DNA from: Bryobacterales bacterium
Lineage (GTDB): Bacteria; Acidobacteriota; Terriglobia; Bryobacterales; Bryobacteraceae
Direction of reading: 5' to 3'
Assembly: GCA_020847975.1 (NCBI GenBank)
Contig: JADLBD010000061.1
Location: 1 to 64,000 of the forward strand
DNA: 64,000 nucleotides
The notes below the pieces were generated by a model that was not told where the DNA came from, ran no database searches, and saw only the letters and a list, made by a program, of their open reading frames with translations. This document shows positions 30,271 through 34,884 of the stretch, piece by piece. The first letter of the stretch is position 1; every line of letters starts with the position of its first letter. The translations under genes were made by a program, and so were the position numbers.

Positions 30271-30366
30271 ATCCTGGCGGCCCCGCGGCGCATCTCAAAA
30301 GCACGAGTTCCGCGGTAATCTCCCTAATCCTGCTGGAGATTGCGATATTATGGATTCAGAGGGGCA

Positions 30367-31323
30367 ATGGCACTCCCGATCGCTGTACCGAATTCTTGGA
30401 GCACACACGCCGCATCTCTGCTCTCCGCCATCGGCAACACTCCGCTTATCAAACTGGAGCGCATCGCCGCCGGATTGCCGGGAGTGGAGATCTACGGGAA
30501 GGCCGAATTCCTCAATCCCGGCGGCTCGGTGAAGGATCGCCCAGCGCTGAATATGATCGTGGATGGAGAGCGCACCGGCAAGCTGACGCATGAACGGATT
30601 CTGCTCGATTCCACCAGCGGGAACACCGGCATCGCCTATGCGATGATCTGCTCGGCGAAGGGCTACCGCGTCAAACTGTGCCTGCCGAAGAACGCGTCCG
30701 AGGAGCGCAAGAAGATTCTGAAAGCGTTCGGGGTGGATATTGTATTTACCGACCCGGCTGAGGGCTCGGATGGGGCCATTTGCAAATGCCGTGAGATCTA
30801 CGAAACCGACCCGGACATCTATTTTTTCCCGGATCAGTACAGCAATCCGGCCAACTGGAAGGCGCATTTTGAAACCACCGGGCCAGAGGTGATCCGGCAG
30901 ACCGAAGGGCGGATCACGCACTTTGTCACCGCCATGGGAACCAGCGGGACGTTCGTAGGCACGACGCGGCGGCTGAAGCGCGACGTCCCTGGCATCCGCT
31001 GTATTTCGGCGCAGCCCGCCTCGGGCTTTCATGGCCTGGAAGGGCTGAAGCACATGCCGACGGCGATTGTCCCGGCCATCTACGACAAGGATCTCGCTGA
31101 CGATAACATCTGGCTCGACACCGAAGACGCATACGCCATGGTTCGGCGCCTGGCGCGCGAAGAGGGTCTGCTGGTGGGCATCTCCGCCGGCGGGAACGTG
31201 GTGGCGGCGCGCAAGATCGGCGAGGAGTTGGCGCGAAACAGGCAGAAAGGCGTAATCGTCACCGTCCTCTGCGACGGCGCGGCGAAATATCTGAGTGAGC
31301 CGTTCTGGGACCAGGAAGAGTAG
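30367..31323 (+). CDS. cysM: CysM-type cysteine synthase (probable O-phosphoserine-using)
   Basis: 318 residues from ATG 30367 (ribosome site GAGGGGC). PLP Lys56 is in NPGGSVKDRPA; the substrate loop is STSGNTG and the cofactor loop is GTSGTFVGTT. The next three genes encode a JAMM protease, a ubiquitin-like carrier and its activating enzyme, the gene set of the CysM-CysO-Mec route of Mycobacterium, in which a protein thiocarboxylate supplies sulfur to O-phosphoserine. A Lys (EGLKHMP) sits about where an Arg is reported to bind phosphate in the mycobacterial enzyme; this alignment is by eye. Confidence 0.88.
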   Translation: MALPIAVPNSWSTHAASLLSAIGNTPLIKLERIAAGLPGVEIYGKAEFLNPGGSVKDRPALNMIVDGERTGKLTHERILLDSTSGNTGIAYAMICSAKGYRVKLCLPKNASEERKKILKAFGVDIVFTDPAEGSDGAICKCREIYETDPDIYFFPDQYSNPANWKAHFETTGPEVIRQTEGRITHFVTAMGTSGTFVGTTRRLKRDVPGIRCISAQPASGFHGLEGLKHMPTAIVPAIYDKDLADDNIWLDTEDAYAMVRRLAREEGLLVGISAGGNVVAARKIGEELARNRQKGVIVTVLCDGAAKYLSEPFWDQEE

Positions 31324-31337
31324 CGCTAAACTACAAG

Positions 31338-31760
31338 ATGATCCAAATTGAGAAACAGGCCTGGGAGGTAATGGTGGCGCACGCACGCGCGGCCTATCCG
31401 CGCGAGTGCTGCGGCGCCATGCTGGGCGTGGAAGAGGACGGCGCCCGGCGCGTCCGTGCCGCGCGGCCCATGCGGAATGCCTTTGAAGGCGCGCAGGAGG
31501 ATACTTACGTTCTCGATCCGGCCGAACAGCTTCAGGTGGAAAAGGAAGCGCGGGCGCAGGGATTGAGCGTCGTCGGCATCTTCCATTCGCATCCTGATTG
31601 CGACGCCTACTTTTCGCGGCGCGACCTCGAGAACTCCTGCCCCTGGTATTCCTTTGTGGTGCTGTCTGTGAAGAAGGGCGAATTCGACCACGCGAACAGT
31701 TTTCTGCCGAACTTCGAACAGACCGCGGCGGAGAAAGAACAGTTAGAATATTCGGTTTAG
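31338..31760 (+). CDS. mec: Mec-type JAMM (JAB/MPN) zinc metalloprotease
   Basis: 140 residues. The JAMM motif is complete: Glu in YPRECCGAMLG (about 23) and HSHPDCDAYFSRRD (HxHx7SxxD, about 76-89). In the mycobacterial pathway Mec releases cysteine from CysO after transfer. Here it may also trim the extra C-terminal Arg of the carrier encoded 15 bp downstream. The gene follows cysM by 14 bp. Confidence 0.9.
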   Translation: MIQIEKQAWEVMVAHARAAYPRECCGAMLGVEEDGARRVRAARPMRNAFEGAQEDTYVLDPAEQLQVEKEARAQGLSVVGIFHSHPDCDAYFSRRDLENSCPWYSFVVLSVKKGEFDHANSFLPNFEQTAAEKEQLEYSV

Positions 31761-31775
31761 CAGGATTAGAATGAC

Positions 31776-32051
31776 ATGGCAAAGATTCTCATACCCACTC
31801 CATTGCGTCAGTTTGTGAACGGACAGGACGCCGTTGAAATCGCGGGCGGTACGGTAGGCGAGTGCCTGGAAAAGCTCACGGCAGATTTCGGCGATCTGCG
31901 CAAGAATCTCTTCAACGATGAGGGGAAGCTGCGCAGCTTCGTAAACGTGTACCTGAACGACGAAGACATCCGCTACCTGGACAAGACGGCGACCGCGGCC
32001 GGCGATCGGGATACCATCTCCATCGTTCCATCGATTGCAGGAGGACGTTAA
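31776..32051 (+). CDS. cysO: CysO-like sulfur carrier (ThiS/MoaD fold) with a Gly-Gly-Arg end
   Basis: 91 residues, ubiquitin-like. It starts MAKILIPTPLRQF and ends SIVPSIAGGR. Activation by an E1-like enzyme needs a C-terminal Gly-Gly; here one Arg codon (CGT) follows before the TAA. Carriers with an added residue are known in other bacteria (the HcyS/HcyD system of Wolinella, as I recall), where a JAMM protease removes it first. The stop shares one base with the start of the activating enzyme (TAATG). Confidence 0.9.
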   Translation: MAKILIPTPLRQFVNGQDAVEIAGGTVGECLEKLTADFGDLRKNLFNDEGKLRSFVNVYLNDEDIRYLDKTATAAGDRDTISIVPSIAGGR

Positions 32052-33220
32052 TGGCGACAACGGCAGTTCCAGTTGCGCTTTCGAATGAAGAGGTGTTGCG
32101 CTACAGCCGCCACCTGCTCCTACCCGAAGTGGGCATGGACGGGCAGTTGAAGCTGAAGTCGGCGCGCGTGCTGTGCATTGGGGCGGGCGGTCTTGGCGCG
32201 CCCCTCGGAATGTACCTCGCCGCCGCTGGTGTGGGCACCATCGGCATGGTGGATTTCGACGTCGTGGACCGCACGAACCTTCAGCGACAGATCATCCACG
32301 GCACCAAGGACATCGGCCGCAAGAAGCTCGATTCGGCGGCGGAGACGATGCTTGACATCAATCCGAACGTGAACATCGAGCGCCATGAGGTGGCGCTCTC
32401 GAGCGAGAACGCACTCGAGATCATGAAGGGCTATGACGTGGTGGTGGATGGAACGGACAACTTCCCCACCCGCTACCTGGTCAACGATGCCTGTGTGCTG
32501 CTCGGCATTCCGAACGTCTATGGCTCCATCTACCGTTTCGAGGGCCAGGCCTCGGTGTTCGCCACCAAGGATGGCCCCTGCTACCGCTGTCTTTATCCCG
32601 AACCGCCTCCCCCGGGCCTGGTTCCAAGCTGCGCCGAAGGCGGCGTGCTCGGCATTCTCCCCGGAATGATCGGAATCGTGCAGGCTACCGAAGCGGTGAA
32701 GCTGATTCTCGGCAAAGGGGAAACGCTCATCGGGCGGCTGATGCTGTATGACGCGATGAACATGAAAGTCCGCGAGATGAAGCTGCGGAAGAGTCCCGAT
32801 TGCCCCATCTGCGGGCCAAACCGCTCCATTCACCAGTTGATCGACTACCATCAGTTCTGCGGCGTTCCGAAGCAGCCGGCTCAGCCGGAACCGGTTGCGG
32901 CGAACGGCGAGATTGACGCCTTAGGCTTGAAGGAACTCCTCGACCGCAACCACAACTTCGTGCTGATTGACGTGCGCGAGCCGCACGAATACCAGATCTG
33001 CCGTATTCCGAATGCGAAGCTCATCCCGCTCGGCGAACTGCCCAGGCGCGTGCGCGAACTCGATCCCGCCGCCGAGTACATCATTCATTGCCGGAGCGGC
33101 GTGCGGAGCGCGAAGGCATGCACGGTTCTCCGTGATGCCGGCTTCCGCAGCGTGCGCAACATGGCAGGCGGCATCCTCGCCTGGAGCGACAAAGTGGACC
33201 CGTCGGTCCCGAAATACTGA
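32051..33220 (+). CDS. moeZ: MoeZ-type E1-like adenylyltransferase/sulfurtransferase
   Basis: 389 residues with two domains. The ThiF/MoeB domain (about 15-265) has GAGGLGAPLGMYLAAAGVG for ATP binding, RTNLQRQIIH, and zinc cysteines in CYRCLYP and CPICGPN. The rhodanese domain (about 290-385) has the active Cys in IIHCRSGVRSAK. It adenylates the carrier's C-terminus and loads sulfur to give the thiocarboxylate. It completes the four-gene cysteine cluster. Confidence 0.93.
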   Translation: MATTAVPVALSNEEVLRYSRHLLLPEVGMDGQLKLKSARVLCIGAGGLGAPLGMYLAAAGVGTIGMVDFDVVDRTNLQRQIIHGTKDIGRKKLDSAAETMLDINPNVNIERHEVALSSENALEIMKGYDVVVDGTDNFPTRYLVNDACVLLGIPNVYGSIYRFEGQASVFATKDGPCYRCLYPEPPPPGLVPSCAEGGVLGILPGMIGIVQATEAVKLILGKGETLIGRLMLYDAMNMKVREMKLRKSPDCPICGPNRSIHQLIDYHQFCGVPKQPAQPEPVAANGEIDALGLKELLDRNHNFVLIDVREPHEYQICRIPNAKLIPLGELPRRVRELDPAAEYIIHCRSGVRSAKACTVLRDAGFRSVRNMAGGILAWSDKVDPSVPKY

Positions 33221-33243: not shown

Positions 33244-34884
33244 TCAGGCGAACACATGCCGCTTCGCGGTCCACTTCGCCTTCAGATATTCGCCCATGTC
33301 CAGCGTTCCGGACATCGCGCCGCCGTCCAGCGTTCCGGTGAAGCGATAGGAAAGCGCCGCTCCGTGCGCCTCCGATACGAAGCTGGCAATCCGCACATCG
33401 GCTCCTTCGATCGTCCCCGACAGGTCGCGTGAGACGAAGTCGCCCTGGTGCGTTCCCACCAGACGGTTGCCCTCCTGCTGCACGTGAAGGACATGCTGGG
33501 AACTGCCGGCGGCGAACTGGATGTGGACCTCCCACTTCCCGCTGAGATTCCCCGCCGGCGCCGCCGGAGCCTCCTTCTTCTTCGGAGCGCGGTGGGCCGA
33601 GAGCACGTCATGAATCCGCTCCCCGACAATTTTGTCCTCGCCCGGCGACATCATGTACGCCGTGATGGAAATGCCGGTTTCATTTGACTGCCGGCCGCGT
33701 CTTCTGCCGCCTTCGCCGCCGTTGAGCGCAATGCGAGGTTCGCCCTCATAGAGGATGCGCGCCACCTCTTCCCCGGTGATCCCGAGTGTATCGGCATCCC
33801 AACTGATGCTCAAATTCGGGCTGTGGTTTGACAATTCGCGCGGCTCGCGGATGCTCGACTTTACGCCACTCACTTTCTCGGCCTGCGCGCCGATGTTCCT
33901 CATCCACGACATCCACATCTCCATCTCGGCCTTGTGGTCGCGCTTCATCCACATCTCGATAGCCGCCAGCATGCCGATGGCCTCCTCCTTGCCCACCTTC
34001 ATGGTGCGGCCGTGGCCATGGTGCGGCGCGCTCGACATCCACGCCGCCTGTACGAGGTCCTTGCGGCCCAGCAGCAGCCCGGCGCACTGCGGGCCGCGAA
34101 TGCACTTGCCGCCGCTGTAGCCGACCAGCGTCGCGCCTCGCTGCAGGTGCACGTTGGGAACCGTCAGCATCTCCGCCGCGGCGTCCACCAGCACCGGCAC
34201 GTTCTTCTTCTTCGCGATGCTGTACATGGCGTCGTAGGGCAGCGGTCCGCTTTCCGCCCGCGGTCCCGCGAAGACGTACACCATCGCCGCCTTCGGACCG
34301 AGCGCCGCCTCATACTCCGCCGCGTCGCCCACTTCGATGATCCGCACGCCCACCGAACGCACGGCCTGGTCGTACACGTTGCGCGAATGCTTCGGGATGA
34401 TCACTTCGTCCTTTTCGAATCCCGTCAGATCAGGGACACGAACGTGCAGGTCAGGGTTGCCGCCGGTGACGCAGGCCGTCGTGGCATGCGCCAGGCCCGC
34501 CGCGCATCCCGAGGACACCATGCCCCACTCGGCTCCCGTTAACTCCGCCAGCCGCCGCCCAATGCCCTCCGCCAGTTCGTCAAGCTGCACGAAATGATGC
34601 GCCGCCGCTTCCTTGGCCGCGCGCACTTCCGGCAGTTCCAGCGACCCGCCGACGATGGTCAGTGTTCCCCGGCAGTTGATCACCGGCCGGACCCCGATCG
34701 ACTGATAGATCTGGTCCGGACTCACATGGAGGTTGCCCACCGTGGCCGCCGCGGGCGCGCCCAGCGCCTCCCTACCCTTCATCAGTCCGGGAATAGCGGC
34801 GAGCCAGCCTGCCCGTTGAATCATTTCCCGGCGGCTCAACCCGCCCAGGTATTTGTGGAAAGCGCTCTTTACGGAGTGGATCAT
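33244..34884 (-). CDS. TAT-exported SelA-like PLP protein with C-terminal beta domain
   Basis: 546 residues. The N-terminus SRREMIQRAGWLAAIPGL is a twin-arginine signal. Residues about 60-420 form a SelA/DgaE-like aminotransferase fold with a PLP-type Lys in YSGGKCIRGPQCAG. About 100 C-terminal residues (LSGKWEVHIQFAAG to the end) form an added beta-rich domain with repeated WEV, GTHQGDF and SGTLDMG strands. Cytosolic relatives are lyases or selenium transferases; the secreted form suggests a periplasmic or extracellular catabolic lyase or racemase. It is followed by a hydrolase on the same strand upstream. Confidence 0.82.
   Translation of the reverse strand: MIHSVKSAFHKYLGGLSRREMIQRAGWLAAIPGLMKGREALGAPAAATVGNLHVSPDQIYQSIGVRPVINCRGTLTIVGGSLELPEVRAAKEAAAHHFVQLDELAEGIGRRLAELTGAEWGMVSSGCAAGLAHATTACVTGGNPDLHVRVPDLTGFEKDEVIIPKHSRNVYDQAVRSVGVRIIEVGDAAEYEAALGPKAAMVYVFAGPRAESGPLPYDAMYSIAKKKNVPVLVDAAAEMLTVPNVHLQRGATLVGYSGGKCIRGPQCAGLLLGRKDLVQAAWMSSAPHHGHGRTMKVGKEEAIGMLAAIEMWMKRDHKAEMEMWMSWMRNIGAQAEKVSGVKSSIREPRELSNHSPNLSISWDADTLGITGEEVARILYEGEPRIALNGGEGGRRRGRQSNETGISITAYMMSPGEDKIVGERIHDVLSAHRAPKKKEAPAAPAGNLSGKWEVHIQFAAGSSQHVLHVQQEGNRLVGTHQGDFVSRDLSGTIEGADVRIASFVSEAHGAALSYRFTGTLDGGAMSGTLDMGEYLKAKWTAKRHVFA

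Follow-up and report, generated by a model that had tools for sequence, protein, structure and literature searches.

Ubiquitin-fold sulfur carriers have been described in several systems that bear on a four-gene cluster in a 64,000-nucleotide stretch of DNA (here called the window; contig JADLBD010000061.1, positions 1 to 64,000, assembly GCA_020847975.1) from a Bryobacterales bacterium of the phylum Acidobacteriota. The closest of these is the mycobacterial CysO-CysM-Mec-MoeZ pathway, with which the window has all four protein types in common and in which Mec+ hydrolyses the CysO-cysteine adduct (PMC3227635; papers cited by PMC number were accessible in part, and statements on them refer to those parts). 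An operon of ThiS/MoaD, E1-rhodanese, JAB and cysteine synthase genes has also been listed as type 4c, with the Acidobacteria entry 'Susi', in a description (Iyer et al. 2006, PMC1779556) whose accessible parts include neither masking of the carrier nor a carrier-E1 fusion of the kind found here. Comparison of the window with its relatives shows that in the Acidobacteriota examined this carrier, which probably provides sulfur for cysteine synthesis, is made with its C-terminal Gly-Gly blocked, and the adjacent protease would probably have to release it before use.

Capped carriers and their proteases are known from other routes. QbsD exposes the Gly-Gly in thioquinolobactin synthesis; a JAMM gene clusters with another capped carrier, PtmS2; and the short caps after the Gly-Gly are MV or C (PMC6006322). 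The window shares with the QbsD and PtmS1/PtmS2 type the combination of a capped carrier and an adjacent JAMM gene; QbsD, PtmS2/PtmS1 and HcyS/HcyD, however, belong to siderophore, antibiotic or methionine routes, and no E1 cap is described in the accessible parts of the sources. HcyD of Wolinella reportedly trims HcyS and also releases homocysteine. Carriers of this family need a free Gly-Gly: MoaX has to be cleaved between Gly82 and Ser83 (PMC4326299). The JAMM protease DR0402 cuts a MoaD-MoaE junction (PMC8832034), and HvJAMM1, which is needed in vivo, cuts SAMP1-MoaE precisely after Gly (PMC4443979). These fusions of a ubiquitin-like carrier to MoaE, and MoaX, are like relatives of the window in that the carrier is N-terminal, the Gly-Gly lies at the junction and the cut frees both parts, but their partner is MoaE rather than an E1 and their product is molybdenum cofactor rather than cysteine. 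A survey of archaeal fusions has reported MoaD-MoeB and MoaD-MoeBR proteins and suggested, at identities >55%, transfer from Acidobacteria (PMC11237513); it covers the same partners, but its accessible parts give the fusion no link to JAMM or cysteine synthase genes, no Gly-Gly analysis and no tailed split forms. Published work thus already covers capped carriers that go with JAMM proteases, fusions of MoaD to MoaE that a JAMM protease cuts, and fusions of MoaD to MoeBR; what is new is the E1 acting as cap, phylum-wide, and linked to cysteine synthesis. In the literature searched, with subscription papers mostly outside reach, the accessible parts reported neither cleavage of a CysO-MoeZ fusion nor Acidobacteriota-wide masking.

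Open reading frames (ORFs) and Pfam matches place a cysteine synthase, a JAMM protease, a ThiS-fold carrier and a ThiF-rhodanese E1 in this order on the + strand of the window, which comes from an acidobacterial metagenome-assembled genome (MAG) of 8.67 Mb in 302 contigs (89% complete, 7% contamination). The features are as follows.

30340-31323, + strand: CysM-like cysteine synthase of the PALP fold (PALP 206.1 bits), upstream of the region covered by the original prediction for this DNA
31338-31760, + strand: Mec, a JAMM/MPN+ metalloprotease of 140 amino acids (Prok-JAB 91.9 bits)
31776-32051, + strand: CysO-like ubiquitin-fold sulfur carrier precursor of 91 amino acids (ThiS 41.5 bits, cut-off 22.5)
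32039-32044, + strand: AGGAGG, a Shine-Dalgarno-like core of moeZ, inside the Gly-Gly codons and 6 nt before the ATG
32040-32048, + strand: Gly-Gly-Arg codons, read from the sequence, with the proposed cut at 32045/32046
32051-33220, + strand: MoeZ-like E1 of 389 amino acids (ThiF 279.7 bits and rhodanese 67.5 bits), with an HCRSGVRS loop

The carrier ends in SIVPSIAGGR followed by a stop (codons GGA GGA CGT TAA at 32040-32051), and the start codon of the E1 overlaps this stop codon (TAATG). The motif of Mec, HSHPDCDAYFSRRD, reads HxHx7SxxD (His83, His85, Ser93 and Asp96) and is joined by an upstream Glu23 (PRECCG). The original prediction had described both a Gly-Gly masked by Arg and a cluster in which a JAMM protease with the full motif accompanies an E1-like enzyme, and the sequence, the motif and the Pfam matches agree with it on each. 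Since the carrier as translated has no free Gly-Gly, the cluster represents a variant, rather than a plain member, of the CysO-CysM-Mec-MoeZ pathway. Mycobacterial CysO ends in a bare Gly-Gly (the match to 3dwg_C ends at 93/93), as do the CysO proteins of Nonomuraea and Tsukamurella, whereas the Acidobacteriota carriers beside mec are capped, often by MoeZ; no moeZ was found in the two stretches fetched from Nonomuraea and Tsukamurella.

Among the best 80 relatives of the locus in the matches listed, none of the carriers ended in a bare Gly-Gly. Separate carrier genes with 1-12 residues after the Gly-Gly accounted for 49 of the 80, and in the other 31 the carrier read in frame, without a stop, into the E1; mec and moeZ were neighbours at all 80 loci and cysM at 75. 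An exact GGR end was found in 20 of the 80, including L005, an independent MAG with a 98% identical carrier. These carriers rule out a sequencing or assembly error behind the Arg, and the result that the original prediction had named as its refutation, close homologues in plain Gly-Gly with an erroneous Arg, was not obtained. The alignment of relatives that it had proposed did not bear out a conserved terminal Arg: the first residue after the Gly-Gly in the 49 separate carriers was R in 30, L in 6, A in 4, K in 3, T in 2, G in 2, E in 1 and N in 1, with the 31 fused carriers having no such end. Arg as a conserved signal is ruled out by this freedom to vary. As the residue after the Gly-Gly varies while none of the ends is bare, the conserved trait is the masking and not the Arg.

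This trait was followed across the phylum with a profile of 26 carriers, which matched in 207 of the 396 Acidobacteriota genomes searched. Ninety-eight phylum loci were fetched, 3 of them for further carriers from the bin that contains the window, and 179 carriers were analysed (the window, L005-L084 and L085-L179; L180-L182 and L204-L206 were left out, and L001-L004 were omitted from the ORF sets). Loci L085-L179 were hand-picked from the matches listed, mostly one per genus plus lower-scoring copies, and the survey rates are therefore not unbiased; the profiles for mec, moeZ and cysM were built from close loci and may miss divergent neighbours. For 155 of the 179 carriers, a mec gene in the same orientation lay no more than 500 nt upstream; 80 of these 155 were fused, 75 tailed and none bare. 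With the duplicate pairs L011/L012 and L037/L141 removed, there were 153 distinct carriers (80 fused, 73 tailed, 0 bare). Seven of the 20 carriers without a local mec were bare (5 were fused and 8 tailed), and the 4 carriers at contig edges were masked in every case. The p value for masking against local mec (8.8e-8, 2x2 table) is descriptive only, because the rows share ancestry. The 84 tails mostly comprise 1-2 residues (59/84) and begin with R (32), A (13), L (9), T (5), K (5) or C (5) among others, while S (41), A (30) and V (8) are the most frequent first residues after the Gly-Gly in the 88 fusions, one of which, L178, matches only weakly (62 bits) and is distantly related.

Fusion of carrier and E1 is common outside the window's own group. 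With lengths read off the listing of best matches (expectation value up to 1e-30), a carrier frame of at least 370 amino acids, long enough to hold the E1, was present in 87 of 131 genomes: 0/3 in the window's family, 6/37 in the class's other family (f2) and 81/91 in other classes. All 56 of the long-frame loci that were fetched proved to be carrier-E1 fusions. In 88/88 fusions, Ala-Gly-Gly is invariant at the junction, as is a Pro three residues upstream, while the 14 positions after the Gly-Gly have entropies of 1.9-3.5 bits and the Gly codons vary synonymously. From what E1 enzymes are known to require, a Gly-Gly in mid-protein cannot be adenylated unless it is cut free. The invariant Ala-Gly-Gly beside a variable linker, encoded by synonymously varying Gly codons, therefore indicates that selection keeps the mid-protein Gly-Gly. 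An AlphaFold2 model of a 483-amino-acid fusion (mean predicted local distance difference test score, pLDDT, 79.2; predicted template modelling score 0.55) has Gly89-Gly90 inside a stretch (86-97) of pLDDT <50 between carrier and E1. Further genes share open frames: Mec, CysO and MoeZ are read from one 619-codon frame in genome G267 (L106/L205), whose model is poor in its Mec part (pLDDT <50 at 21-60 and 84-137), Mec and CysO from one frame at L064, and CysM and Mec from one frame at L199 and L200 (482 and 490 amino acids; genomes G014 and G175). The L199 and L200 genomes carry a CysO-MoeZ fusion on a different contig. At L090, L157 and L159, CysM-like frames end in a C-terminal stretch with a match to one part of the MoeZ profile, probably its rhodanese domain.

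A quick tree was built from 164 E1 domains, with one outgroup row and with a warning of long branches. On this tree the fused or split state changed 21 times, with 12 changes forced by starred branches and a shuffled mean of 54. None of the splits beside mec in the sample had bared the Gly-Gly. Because the rows closest to the outgroup row are fused, fusion is perhaps ancestral, which suggests that the tails of split carriers may be remnants of it. In the aligned Mec domains of Acidobacteriota (numbered 5 above the window), the Glu and the HxHx7SxxD motif are kept in 154/154, window included. The masked ends, the gene order, the intact catalytic motifs and the many switches between fusion and separation are all observed.

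From these observations we infer cleavage by Mec, two roles for this protease and cysteine as the product. Probably, CysO is made as a precursor and matured by Mec with a cut after the Gly-Gly; MoeZ then converts it to the thiocarboxylate, CysM uses this to build CysO-cysteine, and Mec makes a second cut. Mec would cut after the Gly-Gly whatever follows it, be it the Arg of the window, another tail or, in most of the classes sampled, a whole E1, and this first cut would expose the glycine carboxylate. MoeZ would then adenylate the freed carboxylate, its rhodanese domain would provide the sulfur for the CysO-thiocarboxylate, CysM would couple the latter to an activated serine, and a second Mec cut at the same Gly-X bond would yield cysteine and CysO. 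The original prediction had likewise proposed that Mec unmasks the carrier and also releases cysteine. Comparison supports this well (masking in 155/155 carriers beside mec, an E1 often being the cap, and 25 genomes, described below, without another JAB protein detected), although its emphasis on Arg was misplaced, and its term 'self-contained' fits the gene cluster but not what lies beyond it.

Several observations weigh against this mechanism. Of 92 genomes searched with Prok-JAB, one match was found in 30 and two to five in 62, so that a second JAMM protein could mature the carrier in most of them. The window's bin itself contains a second JAMM-motif protein of 622 amino acids (L281:505-2373, contig C67; HSHTRDEIFLSEGD). 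Beyond the phylum, two actinobacterial carriers (L192 and L194) adjoin mec and yet are bare, and an adjacent Mec therefore does not force masking. Furthermore, masking extends to 13 of the 20 Acidobacteriota carriers that lack a local mec, and ThiS of the window's relatives is capped in 8/25 and bare in 17/25 (one batch, counted from rows); because of these two counts, short caps may merely be tolerated.

The possibility that Mec is the sole JAMM protein of the window's genome is ruled out by the L281 protein. This protein has an N-terminal JAMM motif and, by reading, an apparent transmembrane stretch, and is a different kind of JAMM protein. Outside Acidobacteriota, 12 of 15 carriers were bare; the masked ones were from Aliarcobacter (GG-I), Burkholderia multivorans (GG-RS) and a haloarchaeon. 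A JAMM gene lies at most ~1.7 kb from each of the first two, and none lies near the haloarchaeal carrier. Two carrier relatives on viral contigs were both bare. The Aliarcobacter carrier (L185) is encoded on plasmid pACIB of Aliarcobacter cibarius with a cysteine synthase, a JAMM gene and an E1 match, IS110 and IS5 family elements lying among them, and next to these genes are an encapsulin of family 2A and the cysteine desulfurase that is its cargo.

A different protease could unmask the carrier and leave Mec only the release of cysteine; candidates are a carboxypeptidase in the case of short tails, a further JAMM protein, and some general protease acting at the linker. The shortness of most tails, which could be trimmed from the end, fits such a protease, as do the 62 genomes with more than one Prok-JAB match and the description of the protease that cuts MoaX as unidentified (PMC4326299). 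A carboxypeptidase or other exopeptidase, however, could not free the carrier from a 390-residue E1, and the fused and tailed forms interchange beside the same Mec on the quick tree. Moreover, in 25 genomes chosen for a single Prok-JAB match, a search with PF01398 found no second JAB protein (21 matches were to the same gene and 4 genomes had no match), and the carrier was masked in 25/25. Taken together, we regard maturation by a different protease as unlikely. The Arg codon could also be a by-product of translation, in that the Gly-Gly codons double as the moeZ Shine-Dalgarno sequence and the extra codon sets the spacing to the ATG, with the tail being trimmed or tolerated. The exact AGGAGG, 6 nt ahead of the moeZ start codon at 32051, and the TAATG overlap agree with this, and a core (GGAGG or AGGAG) occurs at that place in 38/84 tailed carriers and a stop/start overlap of this type in 10/84. 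Against it, the moeZ match begins 82-1231 nt past the carrier domain in 18/84 tailed carriers, which are masked regardless (the true start may be some codons nearer), and 88 carriers have no stop at all before moeZ. A general cause of this kind is rejected as a rule by these distant-moeZ and fused carriers; we doubt the explanation overall, and spacing may at most make a local contribution to the Arg codon of the window.

The cluster could instead serve molybdopterin synthesis or another thiolation. The archaeal fusion survey placed MoaD-MoeBR under cofactor (molybdopterin) synthesis (PMC11237513), and in mycobacteria MoeZR serves MoaD and CysO alike (PMC3227635). The window's genome also has a cysE match above cut-off (252 bits), and therefore another cysteine route may exist; given this cysE, O-acetylserine is a possible substrate of CysM. 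This assignment is nonetheless quite improbable, since a cysteine synthase is present at 75 of the 80 close loci, a separate MoaD-MoaE open frame is found elsewhere in the same bin and, among solved structures, CysO resembles the carrier more closely than MoaD or SAMP does. The family profile matched 4n6e_B at 84.2 bits (a ThiS/MoaD family protein, which we take to be from Amycolatopsis) and 3dwg_C at 81.3 bits (cfp10A, presumably M. tuberculosis CysO), with weaker matches to 1v8c_A (MoaD related protein, 55.1 bits), 2m19_A (molybdopterin converting factor subunit 1, 39.7 bits) and SAMP1 chains (~30 bits). It is very improbable that the fused or capped carrier is a docking domain while a separate bare carrier does the chemistry. 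In three fused genomes (L120, L124 and L178) another copy, this one bare, does lie close by, but a docking role leaves the invariant Gly-Gly of the fusions unexplained, and among the 23 fused genomes that were fetched first (L085-L107), 12 had a single match to the carrier profile.

The cysteine synthase of the window scored 338 bits against TIGR01138 (cysM), under the cut-off of 394.2, and its start codon is uncertain, with an in-frame ATG at 30367. Its C-terminus is shorter than in mycobacteria (7 residues past the aligned part compared to 20 in 3dwg_A), and in a by-eye alignment Lys stands at the place of mycobacterial Arg220. The Pfam matches of the four proteins were limited to ThiS, Prok-JAB/JAB, ThiF, rhodanese and PALP, with no search aimed at an E2, the trait of Bil/Bub systems. 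The convergent neighbour at 33244-34884 (- strand) looks, from reading its ORF, like a pyridoxal phosphate-dependent SelA-type protein.

Two further carriers were observed in the window's bin (G000). On contig C86, MoaD (2001-2231) and MoaE (2286-2618) share one 242-amino-acid frame (L180:2001-2618), whose junction reads PPVSGG-LGPYTH. This is a second case of a carrier masked by the protein to which it is joined, and twelve loci of relatives have junctions of this type. On contig C191, ThiS (L181:2001-2201) ends in HFVGGG-RR, and capped ThiS was also found at L212 and L216. Contigs C67, C86 and C191 are perhaps not all from the window's bin, because of the 7% contamination. A third, uncharacterised carrier was bare in 5/15 (counted from rows). 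Caps are therefore found on other carriers of the bin and its relatives as well, yet only CysO beside mec was never bare. A wider reading, which we offer tentatively and hold to be possible rather than likely, is that ancestral CysO was the N-terminal domain of its own E1, silent until cut by one JAMM protease, and that this one enzyme also completes the cysteine cycle and, within the group of the window, matures MoaD-MoaE and the GGG-RR end of ThiS. If this were true, one protease would gate cysteine, molybdenum cofactor and thiamin synthesis in this group, and Acidobacteriota would have a ubiquitin-precursor economy for sulfur.

The proposed maturation of CysO by Mec parallels that of ubiquitin, which a deubiquitinase frees from a precursor; here the activating enzyme itself serves as the cap. 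In the fused form, E1 and carrier would be produced in equal numbers, and the latter could not act before the cut. Fusions that have been filed under molybdopterin synthesis are pointed towards a probable cysteine pathway, and carriers of this phylum that are cloned with their native C-terminus are probably inactive without Mec. The loci described here make it testable whether one JAMM protease both opens and closes a sulfur-relay cycle.
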